Shown here in pieces: positions 5,068 through 36,026 of a stretch of 64,000 nucleotides of DNA. This stretch comes from Neoasaia chiangmaiensis (GTDB lineage: Bacteria > Pseudomonadota > Alphaproteobacteria > Acetobacterales > Acetobacteraceae). The stretch lies in contig NZ_CP014691.1 in NCBI RefSeq assembly GCF_002005465.1, positions 2,700,001-2,764,000 of the forward strand. Reading direction: 5' to 3'. Both the position numbers and the translations under genes were made by a program. Below the pieces are notes generated by a model. It saw only the letters and a list, made by a program, of their open reading frames with translations, had not been told where the DNA came from and searched no databases. Each line of letters starts with the position of its first letter. Position 1 is the first letter of the stretch.

Positions 5068-5144
<77 letters not shown>

Positions 5145-14182: not shown

Positions 14183-16486
14183 TCAGCTCTGGCCGAGTGC
14201 GGCCAGCACCGCCTGCGGGCGGATGGGAAGATGGCGCAGGCGAACACCCACGGCATTGAAGATGGCATTGCCGATCGCTGGTGCGATGACCGTCACGCCC
14301 GGTTCGCCGAGCCCCATCGGCTTCTCGGTGCTCTGCACGAACTCGATGTCCATGTCCGGCACATCCGCGATACGCAGCGGCGTATAGGTATCGAGGTTAC
14401 GGTCGCGGATCGTGCCCCCCACGATTTCCGACCCCTCGAACAACGCCATGCTCAGGCCCCAGAGCGCCGCGCCTTCCGTCTGCGCCAGCGCGCCGCCGGG
14501 ATCGACGATCGTGCCGGCATCGATCACCAGCCAGATTTTCTGGCATGTCACGACGCCGGTTTTGCGGTCCACATGCACCTGCGCCGCGCCTGCCGTCCAT
14601 GTCGGCATGCCGCGTTCCTGCCCGAAGCTGGTGGCCATGCCCAGCGCGGTGTCGGCGGGAAGCTGCGTCTTGCCCCAGCCGATCTTGTCCGCCAGATGCT
14701 GCACGACAGCGGCCTGGCGCTTCGCGCCGCCGGTCGAATCCGGCGCCTGCCCGGCGTTGCGCCCGGTGGCCGTGAACAGGGAGAGGCGGAAGGCGACGGC
14801 ATCCTGCTTCAGGTCATGCGCGACTTCGTCGATAAACGATTCGAGCGCCCATGGCGTCCAACCGGCGCTGACGGAACGTAGCCAGCCAGGGCGGAAGGTC
14901 GCATTGGCCAGATCGTTGCTGATCGCGCGCACCTGCGTCGGGCCGGTATCGTACCAGTGATCGGCGCCGGCGATGGCGAACTGATCGTAGGGCTTGCCGT
15001 CCGTGCCCTTTGACATGAAGGCCGCGGCCATGACCTGCGTCGGCCAGCCTGCCGCCGCATCGTAGCGCATGCCGACGATCCTGTTGTCGTGGTCCAGGCC
15101 AACGCGGATGCGCTGGATGGAGGGGGAGCGGATGGAGTCGAACGCCATGTCGTCCGATCGCGTCAGGATCATCTTGACCGGCGCGCCGTCGAGCGCTTTC
15201 GAGGTCAGGGCCGCCGGAACCGCATAATCGCCGTTCAGACGTCGCCCGAAACCGCCGCCGAGCAGATACGTCCGCATGACGATCTGTTCCTTGGGCACCT
15301 GGAGGGCATCGGCGAGTTGCGGCAGGACGAGCGACTGCCACTGGTTGCCCGTATGAATCTCCCACACGCCATCGACGCGGCGCGCGATCGCATTGAGAGG
15401 CTCAAGCTGGTAGTGCGCGACCGAGGCGCAGGTGTAATCGTATTCGATATGGCGCGCCGCGCCGTTCAGCGCGTCCTGCGTGCCCTTGTCGTCGAACACA
15501 TACGTGCCGCCGTCGGTCCTGGCGATGAGCTGGCGCCCGTGATCGATGATTTCCGCCTCGGTGACGGTATGCGTCTCGCCCGGCGACCAGGTGACCTTGA
15601 GCGCGTCCGTTGCCCTGATCGCGGCCGGGTAGGTCTTGGCGACGACCATGACCCAGCCGGGCACGATGTTGGACGGGTCCTGCAACACGACGTGCCGGAT
15701 ATAGCCGGGAACCTTTTTCGCGTCGGTGTCGTCGACGGAAAGCACTTTCGTGCCATAGCGCGTCGGCGGCATCTTCGGTCGGGCGTAGACCATGCCGTCG
15801 ATCTTGGCGTCGATACCGTAGATCGCCGAGCCGTCCGTTTTCGCCGGGATGTCCAGCGCCGCCACGGGCTGACCGATCAGACGGCGCTCACTGGCCGGCT
15901 TGAGCGGCAGCCTGGCCATCTCTTCGGGTGTGAACTGACGGGTCGGGTTCGCCTTCGCCACGATGTCGCCATAGGCGATGCTCTTGCCGTTCGCCGTCAC
16001 CATGCCGTTGCGGGCCGAGCAGGCACCCGGCGTGGTGCCGAGCAGCCTGGCGCCTTCCTCGATCATCACCGTGCGCGCGGCAGCGCCAGCCTGACGGAAC
16101 ACATCCCATGTCATCCAGACGGACCACGAGCCGCCGGTCACCATCAGGCCCCATTTCGGATCGGTGTCGACCTGCGTGATCTTCACCTTGCTCCAGTCGG
16201 CTTCCATCTCGTCCGCGATGATGCGGGCGAGGGCGGTGCCGACATGCTGGCCCATTTCAGCGCGGATGATATTGACGTTCACCGTGCCGTCCGGCGCGAT
16301 GGCGCACCAGATGTTCGGCTCGAAGAGGCCGCCGCCGGGGATGGCGGACGGAAAGACTTCGGAGGCGGCGGCCTTGCGCGCGAAGCCGAACATGAAGCCC
16401 GCGCCGGCGGCTGTCAGCAGAAAGCCGCGGCGCGAGAGCCCCGCGCGACCGTCCTGTCGCGCGGCGATGCGTTCGAGCTTACCCAT
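14183..16486 (-). CDS. Molybdopterin-binding large subunit of the membrane aldehyde dehydrogenase (isoquinoline 1-oxidoreductase-like)
   Basis: Catalytic subunit (767 residues) of the periplasmic aldehyde dehydrogenase used by acetic acid bacteria to oxidise aldehydes to acids. The N-terminus carries a twin-arginine motif ([15 protein letters not shown]), so the folded Mo protein is exported by Tat. Cofactor motifs include [14 protein letters not shown] (near residue 410) and GLGEPG near the C-terminus. Glu728 there matches the catalytic base of the xanthine oxidase family. The FeS subunit gene overlaps its start by 8 bases, and the multihaem cytochrome gene comes first in the operon. This Mo/FeS/cytochrome c set is the AldFGH-type complex of Gluconobacter and relatives. 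It probably needs molybdopterin cytosine dinucleotide made by the nearby genes. Confidence 0.92.
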
Positions 16487-16958
16487 GCGACGGCTCCTGG
16501 CCGGAAGCGGCCGCGGCGGCTTCCTTGATGGCTTTGCGAATGCGGATGTAGGTCATGCAGCGACAGAGGCTGCCGCCCATCACGCCGTCGATTTCCTCAT
16601 CCGTCGGGTTCGGATAGTCTTTCAAGAGGCTGGCTGCCTGCATGATCTGGCCGGACTGGCAGTAACCGCATTGCGGCACCTGAAGATCGCGCCACGCGAC
16701 CTGCACGGGGTGTGCGCCGTTCGGATCGAGCCCTTCGATCGTCGTGACGCTCGCCCCTTCGATCGACGAGAGCGGCGTGATGCAGGAACGCGTCGCGCGA
16801 CCACCGATATGCACGGTGCAGGCGCCGCATTCACCGATGCCGCAGCCGAATTTGGTGCCGGTCAGGTCGAGATCGTCGCGCAATACCCAGAGCAGTGGGG
16901 TGTCGTCGGGCGCATCGACCGAAACCGGCTTTCCGTTAAGTTCGAATTTGATGGTCAT
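16479..16958 (-). CDS. [2Fe-2S] subunit of the membrane aldehyde dehydrogenase
   Basis: Small electron-transfer subunit of 159 residues, about 17 kDa as known for the acetic acid bacterial enzyme. A plant-ferredoxin-type cluster is bound by C39, C44, C47 and C59 ([14 protein letters not shown]). A second all-helical cluster domain has C97, C100, C132 and C134 (QCGYCQSGQ and LCRCM). It has no signal peptide of its own, so it presumably rides through the Tat system with the large subunit, whose gene starts inside its last codons. Electrons pass from the Mo site through the two clusters to the cytochrome subunit. Confidence 0.94.
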
Positions 16959-16986: not shown

Positions 16987-18360
16987 TCAATGCGAGGCAT
17001 TGATCGGCGGGGGTTTCAGGGTGGCGCGCATCTTGGCGGCCTTCTTTTCCAGGTCCGTCCAAGGCGGCAGGTTCGTGCGGGTGCGGCGCAGATAAGCCGC
17101 GATCCGTGCCATGTCATGGTCGCTGAGGCCCGTATAGAAGCTCGGCATCGCGATGCCGTCCTGGCCTTCCCTGGCGCCGATGCCATGCAGCATCACCATG
17201 AACAGGTTGTTCGGCTCATCCAGCCAGAGTGCATTGTTCAACGCCAGTTCCGGACGGCCCGGTACGGGTGCCGGACCGGCATTGTAATGGCATGCGGCAC
17301 AGGCACCCTGATAGAGGCGGGCATCCGGGTCGGTCTGCGGGCCGATCAGATTGGCTTTCGAGCGATCCATGGCCGTGGCGACCGCCGCCTGATTCTGGCC
17401 TTCACGCTGCGCGGCATGGTCGACATCCGCGTAGTAATGGGCGATCGCGCGAACGTCCGATTCCGGAAGTTCCGACAGGAACTCGTGCGGAATCGGGTTC
17501 ATCGGTCCGGCGGCCGAACCATGCAGCGGCGCAACGCCATGGCGGAGGTATTTGAAGAGTTCGTCCTCGGTCCAGACGACCGGCGTCGGATTGTGCTCGT
17601 TCAGTGGTGGTGCGATCCAGCCGTCGATCACGTTGCCGTCGTAGAGTGCGCTTTTCTTTTCCGCGCCCAGCGCGTTGCGGGGCGTATGGCAGGCGCCGCA
17701 ATGCGCGTCGCCTTCGGCAAGGTAAGCGCCCCGGTTCCATTCGGCATCGTGGGCCGGATCATTCCTGTAACGACCCGGCGAGAAGAACAGCAGCTTCCAG
17801 AAGCCCTGTCCGATCAGGCGGATGTTAATCGGGAAGGGCACGGTGTTTTCGCGCGGCGCACGGTGGATGGCCGGCTGGCTCATGAGATAGGCGTAGAGGT
17901 CCGAAACGTCCTGATCGCTCACCTTCGTGAAGTGATCGAAGGGAAAGGCCGGATAGAGTTGGCTGCCGTCGCGGGCGATGCCGAGATTCATCGCGCGCTT
18001 GAAGGCCGCTTCCGACCAGTTGCCGATGCCGGTCTCCGGATCGGGCGTGATGTTGGACGAGAAGATGTCGCCGAACGGCGTTTCCATCTTGTAGTCGCCC
18101 GCCATGCGCGGACCGCCGCCGTTATCGGTGCGGGTATGGCATTCCGCGCAGTATCCTGCCGCGGCGACCAGCTGGCCGCGATGAATGGCCTCCGGCGAGA
18201 AGGATGACGCCGCAGGAGGACTGACCGGGGCGATGGAGGGATACCAGGCGTAGGCGAGAAAGCCGACACCGCCAACGACACCCAGACCGACGACGGCCCC
18301 TACGACGCGCTTGATAAGCGTCATTCTGCTCGACGAGCGATGCGAAGAATCTGTCACCAT
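16987..18360 (-). CDS. Membrane-anchored triheme cytochrome c subunit of the aldehyde dehydrogenase
   Basis: First gene of the three-gene dehydrogenase operon, 457 residues. An N-terminal membrane helix (about residues 18-38) anchors it to the periplasmic face. Three CxxCH haem c sites follow: CAECH 71-75, CGACH 221-225 and CAACH 354-358. It would pass electrons from the FeS subunit to ubiquinone and then to the terminal quinol oxidase. The homologous subunit of alcohol dehydrogenase has the same triheme layout, but the FeS and Mo genes downstream identify the aldehyde enzyme. The ATG at 18360 is used. An ATG 36 bases inside (MTLIKR) would keep the anchor and is also possible. Confidence 0.93.
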   Translation of the reverse strand: MVTDSSHRSSSRMTLIKRVVGAVVGLGVVGGVGFLAYAWYPSIAPVSPPAASSFSPEAIHRGQLVAAAGYCAECHTRTDNGGGPRMAGDYKMETPFGDIFSSNITPDPETGIGNWSEAAFKRAMNLGIARDGSQLYPAFPFDHFTKVSDQDVSDLYAYLMSQPAIHRAPRENTVPFPINIRLIGQGFWKLLFFSPGRYRNDPAHDAEWNRGAYLAEGDAHCGACHTPRNALGAEKKSALYDGNVIDGWIAPPLNEHNPTPVVWTEDELFKYLRHGVAPLHGSAAGPMNPIPHEFLSELPESDVRAIAHYYADVDHAAQREGQNQAAVATAMDRSKANLIGPQTDPDARLYQGACAACHYNAGPAPVPGRPELALNNALWLDEPNNLFMVMLHGIGAREGQDGIAMPSFYTGLSDHDMARIAAYLRRTRTNLPPWTDLEKKAAKMRATLKPPPINASH

Positions 18361-18498
18361 ATGTCACGACATGACAGATCGCCCGCGCAAAAACAATTCT
18401 GCGCGGCTTTTGATCCAGAACAATAACCCGAAGGTAATCCCACGGTTAACTCGCCGTATCAGACCTCACAAAGTGTTTGATAATCAATTGCATTATGT

Positions 18499-20652
18499 TC
18501 AGAAGTCAATTTCCATCGTGAAATGGTAGGTGCGTGGCAGGCCCGCGACCGCCGCATTGGTGGCGCTCGCGTTTCCGCCATTGATATTGTTCGGATATAT
18601 GGACGCCCAGTAACTTTGGTTCGTCACGTTATTGACACCGAAACGAAAGACGATCGGTTCCTTATAGACCCTTGTGGCGTAGCGCGCGCCCAGATCGAGC
18701 GTGACGTACGAATCGGCGAATGTCAGGTTCTGCACGTCCGCGGCACGTCGGCCGGTGTAATGGACATTGGCGTTGACGGCGGCACCCTTCGCCCAGGCCG
18801 GGTGATAGTCGAGAAGCACGTTGGCCTGGATTGGCGGGGCCCCCACCACTTCCTTATGCGAGGTCGCCATCGTGCTGGTATCGCCCAGTTCCGCATCCAT
18901 CCACGTCATGCCGCCCAGGACGCTGAGGGACTTGGTGATGCTGCCGGCGGCCTGGAACTCCACGCCGTAGTTGCGCTGATTGCCGAACGTGCCGAACACG
19001 TGTGTTGCCGGATCGGTGTAGCCATAGGGCCGCGTCATGCGGAAGCCATCGACGTTGAGTTGAAGCCCGTTGTCGAACTGGTATTTGTACCCGACTTCCC
19101 ATTCCTCGGAGCGTAGCGGCGCCAGAACCTGATTGGCGTTGACGACGTTGTCCGGCGCGGTCGGGCCGGCCTCGATGCTGCGCCCCCAGGTGAAATAGGC
19201 GCTCTGACGGGCATTGACCTTGTAGATCAGGCTGGTCATCGGGCTGAACGCAGCATTGCGTGTATAGGTCGATGTCCTGACATTGTTCTTGTTGAAATTG
19301 TTCTCGCTGAGCCAGCCCCAAGCCAGCGTGCCCATGATCGCCCAGTGCTGGTCCAACCAGATCGTGTCGCCGGCGATCAGCGACTGCTCCGCGGTCGTTG
19401 CGGATTTGTAATTGCCGGAGAAATAGGGCTGTTCGCCGGACAATCGGGGTGGATTGCCGAGCACGCCGGACCCGAGAAGAAACGACTCTCCCTGCGTGGG
19501 ATTGTAGTTGCCCATGATATAGCCGTTGGTGCCGAGCGTGATCTCATGGCGCAGCGGGCCCGTGCGGAAGCGCCCGTTCAGGTAAGCGAGGTTGCTGCCG
19601 ACCTTGAAGTTTTTGGCTGTGGCGGCTGCATTGATCGTGGTGCTGTAGAGCCCTTCGTCATTCTGCAACGTGTTGGCGGTCGTGAAGACCTGACGATAGG
19701 CATTCTGGTAAAGGCCGCCGAGCGTCAGGCTCCAGTCATCGTTGAAATGATGGATGATTTTCGCCAGTGCCGTATTGGTTTCCATGTTGAAACCGGCATA
19801 GGGCTGTCCGTAGCCCTGCTTGCTCAGATCCGGTGCATTTGGAAGCTGCAGGCCGGTTTTGTAAGAGAACTGTCCCGGGTAGCCGCGCTCCGCGAAGCTG
19901 TATTGACTTGCATCGATCTGGATGACGGTTTTCGGCGACAGATGGATGTCGAAATCTCCGCTGACGAGATCGCGCCGTAAATGCGACCCCTGAACGAAGC
20001 TCGTGCCCTGCTGATTAAGCAGGTTCAGGCGATAACCGAACCAGCCCTGTCGCCCGACGCGACCGGACACGTCCAGACTTTCCAGTGGCGCGCCGATGGA
20101 ATCCACCCCGGCGACGAAGCGTTCCGTCTGGCGGTCGGTCGGGCGCTTGAGTGTGTAGCTGAATGTACCGGCAGGATTCTGGGGGCCGTAAAGTGCGCCG
20201 GAGAGACCGTTCAGAACCTGAAGATTGTCGAATTGCTCGGCAGCATATGGCGTGGTGATTACCATATTGAGCCCGTCCATGCGGGAATTGGCCACCACGT
20301 CGGCTTCGAACCCGCGTGATTGCGGGCGGCTGGTGTTGGGATCGCCGCGTTCTTCCAGCTGCACCGATGGCATATACTGCGCCAGATCGTTGATGTTGCG
20401 CGACTGCTGATTGGCGATGACGTCCTGCGTCACGGTCATGATGGAGAAGGGCGTATTGAGGGTCGGCCGATTCCCCAGCGGACCGAGCGTCGCCACCGTC
20501 TTGCTGTATTGCGCGGCTGTTCCCGTTGCCGAGCGTGCATGGACAGTGATCTGTTCCAACGGCTTTTTCGCCGGCTTCGTCTGTGCATGAGCCGTCGGCA
20601 AGGCGAACAGCGTCGTCGACAGGAGAAGGTTCTTCAGTGACTTGCGAGGCAT
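18499..20652 (-). CDS. TonB-dependent siderophore-type outer-membrane receptor
   Basis: Outer-membrane beta-barrel receptor of 717 residues. A signal peptide (MPRKSLKNLLLSTTLFALPTAHA) leads to a TonB-box-like region (LEQITVHAR) and a plug domain with NTPFSIMTVTQDVI and the GLSGALYGPQNPAGTF block. The barrel ends in YHFTMEIDF, with the terminal aromatic needed for outer-membrane insertion. There is no extra N-terminal signalling domain, so it is not of the sigma/anti-sigma FecA type. The substrate is unknown. The plug resembles siderophore receptors, but no siderophore genes are near. The gene lies 201 bases downstream of the nucleotidyltransferase/TetR fusion, on the same strand, and upstream of the molybdenum aldehyde dehydrogenase operon. 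Confidence 0.92.
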   Translation of the reverse strand: MPRKSLKNLLLSTTLFALPTAHAQTKPAKKPLEQITVHARSATGTAAQYSKTVATLGPLGNRPTLNTPFSIMTVTQDVIANQQSRNINDLAQYMPSVQLEERGDPNTSRPQSRGFEADVVANSRMDGLNMVITTPYAAEQFDNLQVLNGLSGALYGPQNPAGTFSYTLKRPTDRQTERFVAGVDSIGAPLESLDVSGRVGRQGWFGYRLNLLNQQGTSFVQGSHLRRDLVSGDFDIHLSPKTVIQIDASQYSFAERGYPGQFSYKTGLQLPNAPDLSKQGYGQPYAGFNMETNTALAKIIHHFNDDWSLTLGGLYQNAYRQVFTTANTLQNDEGLYSTTINAAATAKNFKVGSNLAYLNGRFRTGPLRHEITLGTNGYIMGNYNPTQGESFLLGSGVLGNPPRLSGEQPYFSGNYKSATTAEQSLIAGDTIWLDQHWAIMGTLAWGWLSENNFNKNNVRTSTYTRNAAFSPMTSLIYKVNARQSAYFTWGRSIEAGPTAPDNVVNANQVLAPLRSEEWEVGYKYQFDNGLQLNVDGFRMTRPYGYTDPATHVFGTFGNQRNYGVEFQAAGSITKSLSVLGGMTWMDAELGDTSTMATSHKEVVGAPPIQANVLLDYHPAWAKGAAVNANVHYTGRRAADVQNLTFADSYVTLDLGARYATRVYKEPIVFRFGVNNVTNQSYWASIYPNNINGGNASATNAAVAGLPRTYHFTMEIDF

Positions 20653-20838
20653 GGCACGGCTCTGGGTATTCTCCGAAACGGCGACGAAACATTGCGTCGG
20701 TGACGTGGTGAAGATGCCGGGGCGAAATGTCCAGAGGGCGGAGAAAGGGGAAAAGGCCAGTTATTTCATGGACTGTCAAAAGGCAGGTTGTTGTTCTGGA
20801 AAGATAAAACCGGGACTATCGCTTTGGAAAGTGCCAAT

Positions 20839-20854
20839 ATCACGTTTACGTGAT
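20839..20854. promoter_or_regulatory. 16-bp palindrome, possible TetR-family operator
   Basis: ATCACGTTTACGTGAT has perfect 7-bp arms around a 2-bp centre. It begins at the last base of the fusion regulator's stop codon and lies about 187 bases before the receptor start. Length and symmetry fit a TetR-family dimer site. The link to the fusion protein is inference from position only. Confidence 0.4.
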
Positions 20855-22095
20855 TATGACACCGAGTGTAGATCCTTGTCAAAAATGTCACGCTGCAACT
20901 CGAATGTACGGGCCAGAAGCGGTGCGAGTGCGGTTCGCCCGTCGCATCGCAGCCACTCCTCCAGTGCGGCGCGGAAAGCGGCGATGCTGCTGCGTGCCAG
21001 AACGGATGCCGCCAGATGGGTGTTGTCGCTGGCGGGCAATCGGTCACGCCAGGCGTCGATGATGCTTTCCTCCCATGCGGCGTATTTGCGCAGGCTATGC
21101 ACCCGCAGGGCCGGCGACTGTTCGATCAGGCGCACCAGCGCGAGGCATTCCTTCGTTGTCGGTGCAATCCGCTTGATCACCGTTGTGAAGGCCCGGCGCA
21201 TTGCGGGGCCGGGCTGCTCGTCCGGTGCCGCTTGTGCCATCGTCTCCCGCAGGACATCGGTCATGGTGGACGCCCAGGCGAAGACGATATCGCCTTTTGT
21301 GTCGAAATATCGGAAGAGCGTGCGGCGGGACACGCCAGCGGCGGCGGCGATCTCATCAACCGTGACGGCCTCGAAGCCGCGTCCGGCGAACAGATGCATG
21401 GCTTCGGCGATCAGCTTCGTTCGGACCCGAGCCTGTTTCAGTTCCCGCAGTCCGGGAATACGGACATCTTCCCGAGCCGTCGCCGTTCGACGGCGGCCAT
21501 CGATCCAGCCATGACGAATGGCGATGGCAAGTTGCGCCGGCGTGTCGAGATCGAAACCCAATTCCGGCGCGTCCACGAAAATCGGGTTTTCGGTGCCTTG
21601 TTGCCAGATCTGGCCGAAGCCGCGATCACCCGTGAGGTTATCGGCCTGCGCCAGCGTGTGTCGCGAGATCAGCGCGGGAATGCCGTAGCTTTCGGCATCG
21701 TAGCGCGTGACGACGTCCCGTGTGCCCGCCCAGGTCCTCAGCAACGCGTCCAGATGGGGGAGTTGCAGGCGACACTGATCGACGCCGCTGAACAGCACGG
21801 GGCGCGTTGTCTTATGGGACTGTATGGCACGTGCCGCCGATCGGACGGACGTCGACAGGCCCTGTGGCCAGTCGGGGTTCTCGATGATGTTCGCGTTCAG
21901 GCCATTGAGATGGGTCGCCATGCCGCGATCGCCGAGGACGACGAAAAGGCGTGTCGGCTTCGTTTCCGCCAGAAGACGGGCTGCTCGCCGCAAGAGCGGT
22001 TCGCCGTCGATGGTCAGTTCCTGTTTCGGCTGTCCCAGGCGCGCGCTGCCACCTGCGCCAAGCAAAACGGCGTCATGGGAAAATCGCCGTGTCAT
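20854..22095 (-). CDS. MocA-like nucleotidyltransferase fused to a TetR-family regulator
   Basis: A 413-residue two-domain protein. Residues 7-193 form a MocA/MobA-like NTP transferase: the nucleotide loop LLGAGGSARLGQPKQ, PDWPQGLSTSVRSA, SGVDQC where family members have a DQP motif, SYGIPALISR, GDRGFGQIW and a closing FDLDTPAQLA. After a basic linker, residues 218-268 form a TetR helix-turn-helix (FEAVTVDEIAAAAGVSRRTLFRYFDTKGDI), and 269-405 a helical ligand-binding domain. No ATG, GTG or TTG precedes the TetR part within the linker, so separate translation is unlikely. The start at 22095 follows a GAGG 6 nt upstream. An earlier in-frame ATG at 22269 would run through the divergent mop gene. 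The first domain may add CMP to molybdopterin for the two xanthine-oxidase-family enzymes here. The joint role is unknown. Confidence 0.82.
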   Translation of the reverse strand: MTRRFSHDAVLLGAGGSARLGQPKQELTIDGEPLLRRAARLLAETKPTRLFVVLGDRGMATHLNGLNANIIENPDWPQGLSTSVRSAARAIQSHKTTRPVLFSGVDQCRLQLPHLDALLRTWAGTRDVVTRYDAESYGIPALISRHTLAQADNLTGDRGFGQIWQQGTENPIFVDAPELGFDLDTPAQLAIAIRHGWIDGRRRTATAREDVRIPGLRELKQARVRTKLIAEAMHLFAGRGFEAVTVDEIAAAAGVSRRTLFRYFDTKGDIVFAWASTMTDVLRETMAQAAPDEQPGPAMRRAFTTVIKRIAPTTKECLALVRLIEQSPALRVHSLRKYAAWEESIIDAWRDRLPASDNTHLAASVLARSSIAAFRAALEEWLRCDGRTALAPLLARTFELQRDIFDKDLHSVS

Positions 22096-22197
22096 ACGCG
22101 CCTCACATTGAACTGAATCAAAACGTCTTCTCGGGTTGCGGCGTTCAGCATTATGTCGCCAATTCGTGAATATCCAACGTGAAAAAGGAGAAACGCA

Positions 22198-22407
22198 ATG
22201 AAATTGAGTGCACGCAATCAGCTCAAGGGACGCATCGTGGAGATCGTGAAGGGGGCCACCACCTCCCATATCCGCATTGACGTGAACGGTACCGTCATCA
22301 CCAGCGCGATCACGAACGAGGCCGTGGCCGAACTGGATCTGGCCGTGGGGAAGACAGCCTATGCGGTCATCAAGGCATCGAGCGTGATGGTCGGCATCGA
22401 CGACTGA
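22198..22407 (+). CDS. mop: Molbindin (Mop), molybdate-binding protein
   Basis: A 69-residue single TOBE/Mop domain. It starts MKLSARNQLKGRIVEIVKG and contains the SAITNEAVAELDL and AYAVIKASSVMVG strands that form the oxyanion sites in oligomers. Molbindins buffer cytoplasmic molybdate for cofactor synthesis, which suits this neighbourhood. The ribosome-binding site AAAGGAG sits 9 nt before the ATG. The gene is divergent from the nucleotidyltransferase/TetR fusion (102-bp shared upstream region) and convergent with moaE, with only 3 bp between stop codons. Confidence 0.95.
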   Translation: MKLSARNQLKGRIVEIVKGATTSHIRIDVNGTVITSAITNEAVAELDLAVGKTAYAVIKASSVMVGIDD

Positions 22408-26408: not shown

Positions 26409-26530
26409 CGAACGACAAATCGCCTCTACGCTGTAACGGAGCACAATATAGGTGTGTCCTGTGCCGATGGAATGGCGGGATGATCGATAAGTAGGTGTTC
26501 GATGTGGATTTTCGGTCTAGCGTCGCTTCC

Positions 26531-27535
26531 ATGCTTTCGACATCGAACGACATGACGCCATCGCATCTCGCCCAGTGGCCGTCCTGGCCAGAATACGGAC
26601 TGGTGGACGACCTGCTGCCATTCCTGTCCCGCTGGGCGGCGGAGGGACAGCGGGTTGCGCTGGCGACCTTGATGGAGATCACCGGCTCCTCGCCGCGTCC
26701 GCTGGGTAGCGAGATGGCGATTGCCGCCGACGGCAGTGTGGCCGGTTACGTCTCCGGTGGCTGCGTGGAGGCGGAGGTGGCGCGTGAGGCGCTGGACGTT
26801 CTGGCGAACGGCAAGCCCCTCTGGCTCGACTACGGCGAAGGCAGCCCCAACTTCGACATTCAGCTGACATGTGGCGGGCGGATCGGCATCTTCGTCCGGG
26901 AGATACGGGATCTCGCGTCATACGTGGCGCAACGCAAGGCCGCGTTCGATGCGCGGCGCGTGTCCACTGTCGTCACCGACGTGCGGGATGGCAGCATGAA
27001 CGTCATTCAGGGTGAGACCTGGCCGGAAACCGGCATGTTCGCGCGGCCGCACGTGCCGCAGACACGGCTGGTGATCGTCGGCGGGGACCCGGTGGCGCTG
27101 GCCTTGTCGAGACTTGCCCCGCAATTCGGGCTGGCCACCATGTTGCTGCGCCCTATGGGGCCCGAGAGGCCGCCGCTGGAGCTCGATGTGAGCCGATACG
27201 ACCGTCGCAGGCTTGAGACGGCATTAGGCGATCTGGTGCTCGATGGCTGGACGGCCGTTTACAGTCTCACACATGATAGCCATGACGATCTGCTCGTCGC
27301 ACGTCGGGCGCTGGATTCGGCGGCGTTCTGTGTCGGCGTGCTGGGAAGTCGGCGCAAGATAGCGGCACGGATGCGGGCACTCCAGCGGGAAGGGATTGGC
27401 AGCGAGTCGCTGCGTCGGCTCCATCTGCCGGCGGGATTGGCGATCGGCGCACGGACGCCGAACGAAATCGCCCTCTCGATTCTCGCACAGGTGGTGTCGA
27501 TGCGACCGCCGCCGCTGACGGCCGGATTCGGATGA
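26531..27535 (+). CDS. xdhC: XdhC/CoxI family molybdoenzyme maturation factor
   Basis: XdhC proteins bind molybdenum cofactor, help sulfurate it and insert it into xanthine-oxidase-family enzymes, which fits the two such enzymes in this window. The N-terminal XdhC_CoxI part includes ATLMEITGSSPRPLGSEMAI and GYVSGGCVEAEV, with the conserved Cys of the SGGC motif. The Rossmann-like C-terminal part has TRLVIVGGDPVALAL, VYSLTHDSHDD and CVGVLGSRRK, ending in AIGARTPNEIALSILAQVV. Start is uncertain: ATG 26531 is chosen, while GTG 26495 or ATG 26552 would also keep the domain. None has a strong ribosome-binding site. It is divergent from moeA. Confidence 0.9.
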   Translation: MLSTSNDMTPSHLAQWPSWPEYGLVDDLLPFLSRWAAEGQRVALATLMEITGSSPRPLGSEMAIAADGSVAGYVSGGCVEAEVAREALDVLANGKPLWLDYGEGSPNFDIQLTCGGRIGIFVREIRDLASYVAQRKAAFDARRVSTVVTDVRDGSMNVIQGETWPETGMFARPHVPQTRLVIVGGDPVALALSRLAPQFGLATMLLRPMGPERPPLELDVSRYDRRRLETALGDLVLDGWTAVYSLTHDSHDDLLVARRALDSAAFCVGVLGSRRKIAARMRALQREGIGSESLRRLHLPAGLAIGARTPNEIALSILAQVVSMRPPPLTAGFG

Positions 27536-32054: not shown

Positions 32055-32129
32055 AGCTGGCACCCACGCGCGCCAGCACGATCGTATGAGGCTGTCCTTC
32101 GGTTCTTGCATGATAACCGGGGGGTTCTC

Positions 32130-32807
32130 ATGCTTCGACTTATGCCGAACGATCATGCGCATCTGAATGGTGTATTGGCCCTGACGCGGCGCAGGCTGGT
32201 GCAGGGTGCTTCGGCGCTGGCCGTGGCCGTGCGCTACGGCTCGCGTCGGGCTTGGGCGCGCGTTGCGTCGAACACTGCCGTCGCCGGCCCGGCGTCGGCC
32301 ACGACGACGCTGACAGTCAACGGTCAGACGCATCGGCTTTCCATGGATGCGCGCGTGACGCTGCTCGACCTGTTGCGCGAGCGTCTTCTTCTGACAGGCA
32401 CCAAAAAAGGTTGTGACCACGGCCAGTGCGGTGCCTGCACAGTTCTGATTAATGGAGGGCGGCAGTTATCCTGCCTGAGTCTGGCGGCCATGCATGACGG
32501 CGACCGGATCACGACCGTCGAGGGGCTGGCCAGCGACCAGGGTCTGCATCCGGTGCAGGCGGCATTTCTGAAGCATGACGGTTTTCAGTGCGGCTATTGC
32601 ACATCGGGGCAGATCTGCTCGTCCGTCGGGATGCTGAAGGAGTGGCGGCGGGGTGATCCCAGCCTCGTGACGGAAAATCTGGACGACGATCATCCGAAAC
32701 TTACGGAGGCCGAACTGCACGAGCGCATGGCGGGCAATATCTGCCGTTGCAGTGCCTATCTCAATATTGCGGATGCGTTGCGTGAAGCGGCGCGGGAGAC
32801 GGCATGA
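32130..32807 (+). CDS. paoA: Aldehyde oxidoreductase [2Fe-2S] subunit PaoA-like, Tat-exported
   Basis: FeS subunit (225 residues) of a periplasmic Mo/FAD/FeS aldehyde oxidoreductase like Escherichia coli PaoABC. An N-terminal twin-arginine stretch (LTRRRLVQGASALAVAV) marks it as the Tat-carrying subunit, as in PaoA. The first cluster ligands are C95, C100, C103 and C115 (KKGCDHGQCGACTV). The second are C154, C157, C205 and C207 (QCGYCTSGQI and NICRCSAY). The start at 32130 has a run of six G about 7 nt upstream. It overlaps paoB by 4 bases. The spacing from the efflux gene is 75 bases, so co-transcription with the pump is possible. Confidence 0.92.
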   Translation: MLRLMPNDHAHLNGVLALTRRRLVQGASALAVAVRYGSRRAWARVASNTAVAGPASATTTLTVNGQTHRLSMDARVTLLDLLRERLLLTGTKKGCDHGQCGACTVLINGGRQLSCLSLAAMHDGDRITTVEGLASDQGLHPVQAAFLKHDGFQCGYCTSGQICSSVGMLKEWRRGDPSLVTENLDDDHPKLTEAELHERMAGNICRCSAYLNIADALREAARETA

Positions 32808-33775
32808 GGCCGGTTTCCTACGAGCGGGCGCGGACCGTCGGACAGGCTGCGAGGATGAGCGCATCGGCGGGCGCGATGCCGATCGCCGGTGGGACCAATC
32901 TGCTCGATCTCAGCAAGCTGGAAGTGGAAACCCCGTCGCGGCTGGTCGATATCCGGCAGATCGATGCCCTGCGTGGTGTCAGGGAGACGACGGAGGGCGA
33001 AGTCCGTATCGGCGCGCTGGTGAGCAATGCGGAACTGGCGGCGCACCCGGTCATTCGCGCGCGTTATCCACTGTTGTCGCGCGCCATTCTGGCAGGGGCC
33101 TCGGGCCAGATACGCAACATGGCCAGCACGGGCGGTAATCTGCTGCAGCGGACACGGTGCGTGCAGTTTTACGATACGTCGAGCGCCTGCAACAAGCGTC
33201 AGCCGGGCAGTGGCTGCGGGGCGCTACACGGCGCGAACCGCATGAATGCCATCGTCGGTGGCAGCGAGCACTGTATTGCCGTGCATCCGTCCGACATGGC
33301 GGTCGCCATGCGGGTTCTGGACGCTGTGGTGGAGATTCAGGGGGCGGACGGTGCGGTGCGACATGTACCGATCGGTGCATTCTACCGCTTGCCGGGCGAT
33401 ACGCCCCAGAACGAAACGGTGGTTCGACAGGGCGACATCATCACCGCCGTCCTGCTCCCGCCAGCGCCACCGGGCCAGCAATTCTACCGCAAAGTGCGCG
33501 ACAGGGCGAGTTATGCCTTCGCGCTGGTCTCGGTCGGTGCAGTGGTTGCCGTCGAGGACGGTCGGTTCTCGACCGTGCGTTTCGGCTTTGGCGGTATCGC
33601 GCCGAAGCCGTGGCGCGTGGAGGCGGCGGAGGCGAGTTTGAAAGGCAGGGCGGTCTCGCGCGAGGCTGTCCGGGATGCATGTGACATGGCGCTGAGTGGC
33701 GCGATCGGACGGGGCGACAATGACTTCAAAATCCCCTTGGCCCACCATACGCTGGCGGCCGTCCTGGCCGTCTAG
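32804..33775 (+). CDS. paoB: Aldehyde oxidoreductase FAD-binding subunit PaoB-like
   Basis: FAD subunit of 323 residues. MPIAGGTNLLDLSKL near residue 25 and AGASGQIRNMASTGGNLLQRTRC near 97 are the FAD-binding segments. Cysteines in RTRC, SACNKRQPGSGC and SEHC suggest the extra [4Fe-4S] cluster found in PaoB and 4-hydroxybenzoyl-CoA reductase. The C-terminal CO-dehydrogenase-flavoprotein domain follows (FYRKVRDRASYAFALVSVGA). It accepts electrons from the two FeS centres of PaoA. Its last 56 bases overlap the start of paoC in another frame. Confidence 0.92.
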   Translation: MRPVSYERARTVGQAARMSASAGAMPIAGGTNLLDLSKLEVETPSRLVDIRQIDALRGVRETTEGEVRIGALVSNAELAAHPVIRARYPLLSRAILAGASGQIRNMASTGGNLLQRTRCVQFYDTSSACNKRQPGSGCGALHGANRMNAIVGGSEHCIAVHPSDMAVAMRVLDAVVEIQGADGAVRHVPIGAFYRLPGDTPQNETVVRQGDIITAVLLPPAPPGQQFYRKVRDRASYAFALVSVGAVVAVEDGRFSTVRFGFGGIAPKPWRVEAAEASLKGRAVSREAVRDACDMALSGAIGRGDNDFKIPLAHHTLAAVLAV

Positions 33776-36026
33776 GCCGGGCGCACGACAGAACGACACC
33801 CTGCCGGATCCGCCGCTGGGACCGCCCATTGGGCCGGGGATCGTGCGTGTCGAGGGACATGCGAAGGTCACGGGGCGGGCGCGCTATTCCTATGAGGCGC
33901 AATCGGCCGATGGCGTGCCGGCGCGTGCGTTGTATGGTGCTGCGGTGCTCTCGACGATTGCACGGGGGCGGATCGCATCGATCGATACGTCGGCGGCGGA
34001 AAAGGCGCCCGGCGTCCGGTTGGTGCTCACCCATCGGAATGCACCGCCGCAGGCAAAATGGGGACCGCTGAACGCCAAGGTTCGGTTCGCACGCAGCCAG
34101 CCTGTCCTGCATGACGACCAGGTGCGGTATTTCGGCGAGCCTGTTGCGTTCGTGGTGGCGGACAGCTTCGAGAACGCCACGGACGCGGCGTATCGGATCG
34201 CAGTGCGATATGCCGCCGAAGCGCCGGATATCGACTTGCAGGCTGAAAAGGGCGTCGATCCCGCACCACTGCATGGCGGCAAGTCGGCCGATACGCGCAA
34301 AGGCGATTTCGATGCGTCGTTCGGTGAATGCGTGCATCGGATCGACGTCCGATACGACACGCCATACCAGCATCATGTTTCGATGGAGGCACAGGCAAGC
34401 CTTGCCTACTGGCAGGGCGGCAAGCTCGTCATTCATGCGCCGGCGCAGATTCCGGCTGCGATGCAGGCCGGCATCGCGGCGACGTTCCAAATGCCGCAAC
34501 AAGACGTACGGATCGTCGCGACGCTGATCGGCGGCGGTTTCGGGGGGAAACTGCCGTATTTCGCCGACTCTGTGCTGTGTGCCATCGCCAGCCGGCTGTT
34601 GTCGCAACCCGTGAAATTTGCCTTCACGCGCCAGCAGACTTTTCTTGCGACATCGCATCGCCCTGCTGTTCTGCATCGTGTTCGCGTGGGTGTCGGCGCG
34701 GACGGCCTGATCCGGGCGATCGGACATGAGGTGGTGTCGCAGACAGCGTCGTTCGACAACTATCTCGATGGCGACACGATGGGTGCGGAGGGGCTTTATC
34801 GCGCCGACGCCATTCTGACGACGCAGCGTCTGGCGCGCCTCGATCTGCCACGCTCGGATTCGATGCGCTCGCCCGGTGATGCTTCGGGGTCGCTGGCATT
34901 CGAATGCGCGATCGACGAGGCGGCGTATGCCAGTGGCGTCGATCCGGTCGAGTTTCGAATCCGTAACGATACGTCCACCAGCCCCGCTTCAGGCAAGCCG
35001 TTCAGCAGCCGCCGACTGGTGGCATGTTTCGAAACAGGCGCCGAAAACTTCGGTTGGAAGGCGCGCAGCAAACGTCGTGACGGGGAGTGGCTGATCGGTT
35101 TCGGCGCGGCATCGGCGATGCGTGACAACATGCTCAGGGAGTCCAGCGCCGAAGTCACTCTCCTGCCGGATGGGCGGCTGGAGGCACGGCTGGATATGAC
35201 CGATCCTGGAACCGGCAGCTACACCGTGTTGACCCAGATCGCCGCCGAGGCGTTGGGTTTGCCGGTTGAGCGCGTAACGGTGCGGATCGGCGATACGGAT
35301 TTCCCCCCGACCGCCGGTTCCGGTGGTTCATTCGGTGCGGAAAGCGCAGGATCGGCGTTATATGAAGCGTGTGGTCGCTTGCGCGAGCGACTGGCCCAGC
35401 AGGCATCGGCCGATGCACGGTTTCAGAATATGGCCGCCTCCGATTTCCGGTTCGAAGGCGGTTTGCTGAAAGCGGGCGGTGCGAAGATCGCGCTTGGCGA
35501 ATTGGCGCGACGCGGCGCTCCGGATGGCATGACGGCGCCAGGCCATATCGCACCGGGTGTTGAAGCGAAGGATTACGCCGAAGCCTCATTCGGCGCGCAG
35601 TTTGCGGAGGTGGCGGTCAATGCCGTGACGGGTGAGACACGTGTCCGTCGCATGTTAGGGGTTTTCGCCTGCGGGCGCATCCTCAACGCACGGACGGCAC
35701 GCTCGCAGGCGCTTGGCGGCATGATCTGGGGATTGTCCTCCGCCCTGATGGAAGGCAATTCGGTTGATGCGCGCGGCCAGTTCGTGGCTCATGATCTGGC
35801 GAATTACCATGTGCCGATCATGGCCGATATCGGCACGATCGACGCTGTATTGATGGAAGAGGAAGACCCGGTCGCCAATCCGCTCGCGATCAAGGGAATT
35901 GGCGAAGTCGGTATCAATGGCGCGGGTGCTGCCGTGGCGAACGCGATTTTCGATGCGACGGGGATTCGTATCCGGTCGTTTCCCATCACGCTCGATAAGC
36001 TGGGCGCGCATCTATGGGCGGCATGA
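33720..36026 (+). CDS. paoC: Aldehyde oxidoreductase molybdopterin subunit PaoC-like
   Basis: Catalytic Mo subunit of 768 residues, xanthine oxidase family. After a short, unusual basic/Trp-rich N-terminus come VEGHAKVTGRARYSYEAQ, LIGGGFGGKLPYFADSV (cofactor loop), DSMRSPGDASGSLAFECAIDEAA (the position of the usual MRAPG loop, here MRSPG) and GSGGSFGAESAGSALYEA. Near the C-terminus IKGIGEVGINGAGAAV contains the catalytic Glu at about 729. Together with PaoA and PaoB it would oxidise aldehydes, often aromatic ones, as a detoxifying enzyme. The cytosine dinucleotide cofactor is expected, linking it to the MocA-like domain at 20854-22095. The ATG at 33720 follows GGGG by 6 nt. Confidence 0.92.
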   Translation: MTSKSPWPTIRWRPSWPSRPGARQNDTLPDPPLGPPIGPGIVRVEGHAKVTGRARYSYEAQSADGVPARALYGAAVLSTIARGRIASIDTSAAEKAPGVRLVLTHRNAPPQAKWGPLNAKVRFARSQPVLHDDQVRYFGEPVAFVVADSFENATDAAYRIAVRYAAEAPDIDLQAEKGVDPAPLHGGKSADTRKGDFDASFGECVHRIDVRYDTPYQHHVSMEAQASLAYWQGGKLVIHAPAQIPAAMQAGIAATFQMPQQDVRIVATLIGGGFGGKLPYFADSVLCAIASRLLSQPVKFAFTRQQTFLATSHRPAVLHRVRVGVGADGLIRAIGHEVVSQTASFDNYLDGDTMGAEGLYRADAILTTQRLARLDLPRSDSMRSPGDASGSLAFECAIDEAAYASGVDPVEFRIRNDTSTSPASGKPFSSRRLVACFETGAENFGWKARSKRRDGEWLIGFGAASAMRDNMLRESSAEVTLLPDGRLEARLDMTDPGTGSYTVLTQIAAEALGLPVERVTVRIGDTDFPPTAGSGGSFGAESAGSALYEACGRLRERLAQQASADARFQNMAASDFRFEGGLLKAGGAKIALGELARRGAPDGMTAPGHIAPGVEAKDYAEASFGAQFAEVAVNAVTGETRVRRMLGVFACGRILNARTARSQALGGMIWGLSSALMEGNSVDARGQFVAHDLANYHVPIMADIGTIDAVLMEEEDPVANPLAIKGIGEVGINGAGAAVANAIFDATGIRIRSFPITLDKLGAHLWAA

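Follow-up and report, generated by a model that had tools for sequence, protein, structure and literature searches.

A MocA-type nucleotidyltransferase and a TetR-type regulator are fused in one gene among the molybdenum cofactor (Moco) genes of Neoasaia chiangmaiensis, and this fusion is genuine. In the window, by which we mean the whole stretch of 64,000 nucleotides analysed here (contig NZ_CP014691.1, positions 2,700,001 to 2,764,000), it forms a single open frame on the minus strand, and the plus strand there is interrupted by stops. A first-pass annotation had described an uninterrupted two-domain frame of 413 codons, which translation and Pfam confirm and to which the strand is now added. 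We consider it fairly probable that the product is a bifunctional protein of the aldehyde-oxidation system in acetic acid bacteria, in which the MocA half would make a cofactor and the TetR half would repress the adjoining TonB receptor gene (tonB) and the NAD-acetaldehyde dehydrogenase gene exaC.

Table 1. Coordinates of the fusion gene, its domains, the predicted regulatory elements and the neighbouring genes in the window.
Feature	Position	Strand	Remarks
mocA-tetR fusion gene, 413 aa	20854-22095	-	Stop codon TAA at 20854-20856; basis: translation, full-length homologues
MocA-type NTP transferase domain NTP_transf_3, residues 9-166	21598-22071	-	Pfam, E 4e-24, 85.9 bits (cut-off 27); motifs LGAGGSARLGQPK and FDLDTP retained
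Interdomain linker, about residues 197-221	21433-21507	-	Without in-frame start codon
TetR_N helix-turn-helix, residues 228-273	21277-21414	-	Pfam, E 2e-15, 57 bits (cut-off 24)
TetR_C_14, MftR-type ligand/dimerisation domain, residues 295-400	20896-21213	-	Pfam, E 1e-12, 48.4 bits (cut-off 22.7); closest solved fold MftR 8x0a
Predicted operator, RGTGYCA-N3-TCACG-N4-CGTGA-N3-TGRCACY	20830-20863		Overlaps fusion stop codon and tonB promoter
Predicted operator, composite reading shared with exaC promoters	20840-20871	-	CTACACTCGGTGTCA-TAA-TCACGTAAACGTGA, 16/20
Predicted -10 box CATAAT of tonB promoter	20853-20858	-	Inside operator; sequence, inference
Predicted -35 box TTGACA of tonB promoter	20877-20882	-	18 nt from -10 box; sequence, inference
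TonB-dependent siderophore-type receptor, predicted target	18499-20652	-	TIGR01783, 235.9 bits (cut-off 223.5); synteny
aldH-like cytochrome c subunit of Mo aldehyde dehydrogenase	16987-18360	-
aldG-like [2Fe-2S] subunit	16479-16958	-
aldF-like molybdopterin-binding subunit	14183-16486	-	Presumed user of MocA product
Molbindin (Mop)	22198-22407	+	Divergent from fusion gene
XdhC-family maturation factor	26495-27535	+	Orthologue adjoins stand-alone MocA in genus g54

All three Pfam domains of the fusion protein exceed their curated cut-offs. The annotation had seen no start codon in the linker, and this holds, as in-frame ATG, GTG and TTG are absent from codons 179 to 233. The surroundings are also as it claimed: molbindin opposite, moa, moe and mob genes around, a TonB receptor and a Mo enzyme downstream. 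It knew of no described example; likewise, the literature searched holds no paper describing a MocA-TetR fusion.

A search for the same architecture in other Acetobacteraceae, which the annotation had proposed, returned stop-free homologues in four further genera. The fusion is thus carried by five genomes of five genera (among 200, then 398 genomes of the family), in every case full-length. Relative to the window's own genome (G000), identity is 63% in G078, 58% in G036, 51% in G022 and 45-50% in G047. The last is Tanticharoenia sakaeratensis, the one match in a scan of named genomes. Outside these five genera, the 398 genomes sampled from the family, 299 from the order and 385 from the class gave no fusion. 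Since uninterrupted two-domain homologues exist in four further genera, neither chance nor a frameshift artefact explains the frame. Two separate genes in relatives, joined here by a frameshift, had been named as the finding that would speak against the fusion. The relatives were inspected accordingly: the fusion is intact in five genera and the split genes of genus g54 lie at different loci, which rules out a frameshift, sequencing or assembly artefact with near certainty.

The fused MocA halves form one clade (support 100/99); the fused TetR halves may also do so, though with weak support (71/43). In genus g54, MocA (46-48% identical) has its own gene, directly adjoining xdhC in a moa-moe-mob cluster, and the TetR (42-46%) lies at another locus, convergent with a TonB receptor which is 66-68% identical to the one adjoining the fusion. 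In other genera, a stand-alone TetR with 46-51% identity adjoins a gene for an NAD-dependent, exaC-type aldehyde dehydrogenase (seven loci), often accompanied by a pyridine-nucleotide oxidoreductase gene. At locus L038, the dehydrogenase tested reaches 887.6 bits with the model for ExaC acetaldehyde dehydrogenase, whose cut-off is 900. Gene order is fusion, TonB receptor, aldH, aldG and aldF in G000, G078 and G022, and fusion followed by TonB receptor in G047. The fused TetR is the only one of its family found in G000 and G036; besides the fusion, G047 has a separate TetR beside exaC.

MocA transfers CMP onto Mo-molybdopterin to yield the MCD cofactor (PMC2997495), and an MCD-dependent membrane acetaldehyde dehydrogenase has been described from acetic acid bacteria (PMC9171043). 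The motif pair LxxGxSxRxGxxK and DxDTP is present in the window's fusion as LGAGGSARLGQPK and FDLDTP. MocA is the best transferase family for the fused half, MobA models giving about 20 bits; against the MocA equivalog TIGR03310 of NCBIfam it scores 82.9 bits and stays below the cut-off of 186.45. Together with MobA, it is the only MobA/MocA-type NTP transferase evident in the window's genome; the remaining NTP_transf_3 matches are weaker and, judging from length and score, presumably belong to different nucleotidyltransferases, for example GlmU. An AldF orthologue (64-100% identity) occurs in 15 of the 16 genomes examined, the exception being G036. The four fusion genomes with AldF have kept the MocA motifs and 58-61% identity. 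In G036, LGQPK is replaced by LDRPE and FDLDTP by FDLATS (L003, G036:C17:49449-50675, is the fusion with this motif-less half); the TetR half and the predicted exaC operator persist in this genome without aldF. Although seen only once, this joint loss of aldF and the MocA motifs speaks for cofactor synthesis by the intact halves.

The TetR half consists of TetR_N followed by a helical ligand domain, as expected of the TetR family. MftR is its best family match and PDB 8x0a its closest solved fold; it reaches 114.1 bits against the MftR equivalog TIGR03968, below the NCBIfam cut-off of 224.9. As neither half attains its equivalog cut-off, 'MocA-type' and 'MftR-like' are the names which can be defended. 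Structure prediction returned an all-helical model for the TetR half; it rested on five rows only, for which reason the MocA half was modelled poorly, and domain contacts were beyond its reach. MftR is responsive to long-chain acyl-CoAs, and its operator footprint has the core GGCA-N5-TGCC (PMC8728441).

In four of the five fusion genomes, a predicted operator lies in front of tonB at the end of the fusion gene. The annotation had proposed two stretches of DNA for binding by the protein: 20839-20854 turned out to be the core of this predicted operator, and 22096-22197, the fusion gene's own promoter, lacks any match to the 34-bp form at up to 8 mismatches. In the window, the dyad TCACGTTTACGTGA occupies 20840-20853 by the fusion stop codon, and the predicted -35 box of tonB falls within the 3′ end of the fusion gene. 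Each of the five fusion genomes has 3 to 9 copies of the core TCACG-N4-CGTGA, and four of them have one of these copies within the short fusion-tonB-ald region; in G078, this exact copy sits between tonB and aldH. The 34-bp form matches the tonB promoters at 24 (G000), 22 (G047), 21 (G078) and 20 (G022) of 24 positions, and shuffling the 511 kb searched three times produced no match at up to 5 mismatches. All four sites coincide with the fusion stop codon or come within a few bases of it, some 180-190 bp ahead of the tonB start. The one in G047, CGTGCCAACCTCACGAATTCGTGAGGTTGGCACG (L035:8873-8906), is perfectly palindromic over its 34 bp and overlaps the fusion gene end.

A composite form, [TGGCAC-N3-GTGCCA]-N3-5-[TCAC-N6-GTGA], relates these sites to exaC. 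With up to 3 mismatches it yields eight sites in the loci examined, all in exaC or tonB promoters, and none in 1.6 Mb of shuffles. The composite site is found 5′ of exaC beside stand-alone TetRs (L041, L042, L043, L045), 5′ of exaC in G036 (L099, 19/20) and 5′ of the window genome's own exaC (L097, 17/20, at C1:1389438, some 260 bp ahead of its start codon), and the tonB promoters of G078 and G047 supply the other two sites; the window's own tonB site matches this form at only 16/20. The G022 exaC promoter has no clear composite site. In G036, no dyad was found near the fusion, and four exact sites are located elsewhere in the genome. No predicted operator was found in front of Moco genes. The first half of the composite site has the same GGCA-N5-TGCC core as the MftR operator known from footprinting (PMC8728441). 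The g54 tonB promoters have this MftR-type half alone, the TCAC-N6-GTGA element being missing; there, the palindrome TGGCACTNAGTGCCA stands at L090:4926, L091:5038 (one mismatch) and L092:10469, about 60 bp 5′ of the TonB receptor gene. Inspection of these loci supplied the operator pattern, and several of the promoters had already been viewed before the composite scan. For this reason, the operator statistics speak for consistency, are partly post hoc and do not amount to a fully independent test. Another regulator could bind the predicted sites. The TGGCAC element of the tonB promoters was also considered as a sigma-54 or -35 element and rejected by eye, since its spacing is unfit.

Several further features of the window deserve mention. 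Just 5′ of the aldH start codon (18362-18376), the palindrome TGTCA-CGACA-TGACA has an N5 spacing like the MftR-type site, and G078 shows a counterpart, TGTCATGTCGTGACA, at the equivalent place (L032, about 11895); this palindrome is possibly a further operator. The tonB leader (20653-20829, from predicted operator to start codon) measures about 180 nt in fusion genomes and ~60 nt in g54, and Rfam gave no match at the fusion locus, the leader included. A second molybdenum hydroxylase gene set with small, FAD-type and large subunits (32106-36026) sits behind an EmrAB-type efflux system and an outer-membrane factor. The window starts with 23S and 5S rRNA genes and a tRNA gene (5-2975 and 5071-5144).

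While the DNA itself shows the fusion and its conservation, the operator pattern and the relatives with separate genes, we infer the activity, binding, repression and ligand which complete the picture. The N-terminal half, the only MocA-type transferase evident in the genome, would add CMP to Mo-molybdopterin, and the resulting MCD cofactor would serve the membrane aldehyde dehydrogenase AldFGH. The C-terminal half would act as an MftR-like TetR repressor which binds DNA as a dimer. Its putative composite palindromic site, where the fusion gene ends, spans both the -10 box and the start region in the tonB promoter; exaC, elsewhere in the genome, is preceded by a weaker copy. A small ligand would release the repressor, perhaps an aldehyde-derived compound or an acyl-CoA metabolite as in MftR. 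A single event, the placement of a tonB-tetR unit behind mocA, probably gave rise to the fusion. The joined gene would tie together the production of two proteins of one pathway, the halves working largely independently. The simplest account is that the cofactor-finishing enzyme for one aldehyde dehydrogenase is joined to a predicted repressor of tonB and exaC, which would thereby control aldehyde metabolism.

The two halves diverge independently, which argues against a tight coupling of both activities. Relative to G000, the MocA and TetR halves are respectively 61% and 29% identical in G047, 60% and 43% in G022, and 53% and 63% in G036. It is the TetR half, not the MocA half, which has diverged where G047 has a separate exaC-side TetR and G022 an exaC without clear site; in G000 and G036, whose TetR halves have stayed similar (63%), the site is present at exaC. 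These figures weigh on a reading as trigger enzyme, in which the TetR half would bind DNA differently once the MocA half has bound its substrate, a nucleotide or the cofactor, transcription thereby following cofactor supply. Such a coupling, suggested by the first-pass annotation, agrees with the covalent union of the halves in five genera and with the motif-less MocA-like half of G036, which a pure sensor might retain. We regard it as unlikely: the halves change at unrelated rates, G036 lost the MocA motifs but kept its TetR half, and the TetR half has an MftR-type ligand domain of its own. Moreover, TetRs which stand alone, with no MocA attached, seem to share this operator, and the predicted operators stand at tonB and exaC, not at the gene's own promoter or the Moco genes. 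Cofactor sensing is therefore unsupported. It is more doubtful still that the last enzyme of MCD synthesis senses cofactor demand via its TetR half and sets AldFGH, ExaC and the uptake receptor; if true, the cell would switch between Mo-dependent AldFGH and NAD-dependent ExaC by cofactor supply.

Two other readings dispense with one function or with the joined protein. The gene might serve joint production only, with a polyprotein that is cleaved in the cell or translated as two pieces. In its favour, the linker is short, its sequence varies (27-50% identity, with part of it missing in G047) and its model has low confidence, but it offers no start codon here and none conserved among relatives, and no protease site is known; we hold this to be rather improbable. 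That the MocA half is a relic everywhere, leaving only a regulator, would fit the motif loss in G036 and the score below the MocA equivalog cut-off. It is at odds with the motifs and the 58-61% identity kept in the four genomes with AldF and with the window's genome being devoid of another evident MocA-type gene, and its probability appears very low. The bifunctional protein of aldehyde oxidation remains our preferred reading.

BirA, NadR and PutA combine an enzyme and a DNA-binding repressor in one polypeptide, and the substrate state of the enzyme sets DNA binding. The fusion has the one-polypeptide arrangement in common with them and differs in DNA-binding fold and pathway; substrate-set DNA binding is a property of these proteins, and for the fusion the independent divergence of its halves points, indirectly, against it. 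With MocA (TIGR03310) it shares the NTP_transf_3 domain, the nucleotide-binding motif and a neighbourhood with xdhC and a xanthine-oxidase-family enzyme (PMC2997495); what sets it apart is a score short of the equivalog cut-off and the TetR regulator at its C-terminus. MftR (TIGR03968, PDB 8x0a) is the best family and fold match, with GGCA-N5-TGCC in common with the operator half-site. The fusion departs from MftR in its predicted targets tonB and exaC, the second TCAC-N6-GTGA element, the attached enzyme and, again, a score under the equivalog cut-off. The exaC-linked stand-alone TetR is 46-51% identical to the TetR half and has the same composite predicted operator; it differs as a separate gene product of roughly 210-220 aa, without MocA half, beside the acetaldehyde dehydrogenase which it presumably controls.

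The operator sequence is testable and predicts an exaC/tonB regulon across acetic acid bacteria. Furthermore, G036 is a natural experiment: with the client enzyme lost, the enzyme half seems to be decaying. In this vinegar-making group, the fusion links the finishing enzyme of a molybdenum cofactor to the predicted transcriptional control of aldehyde oxidation.
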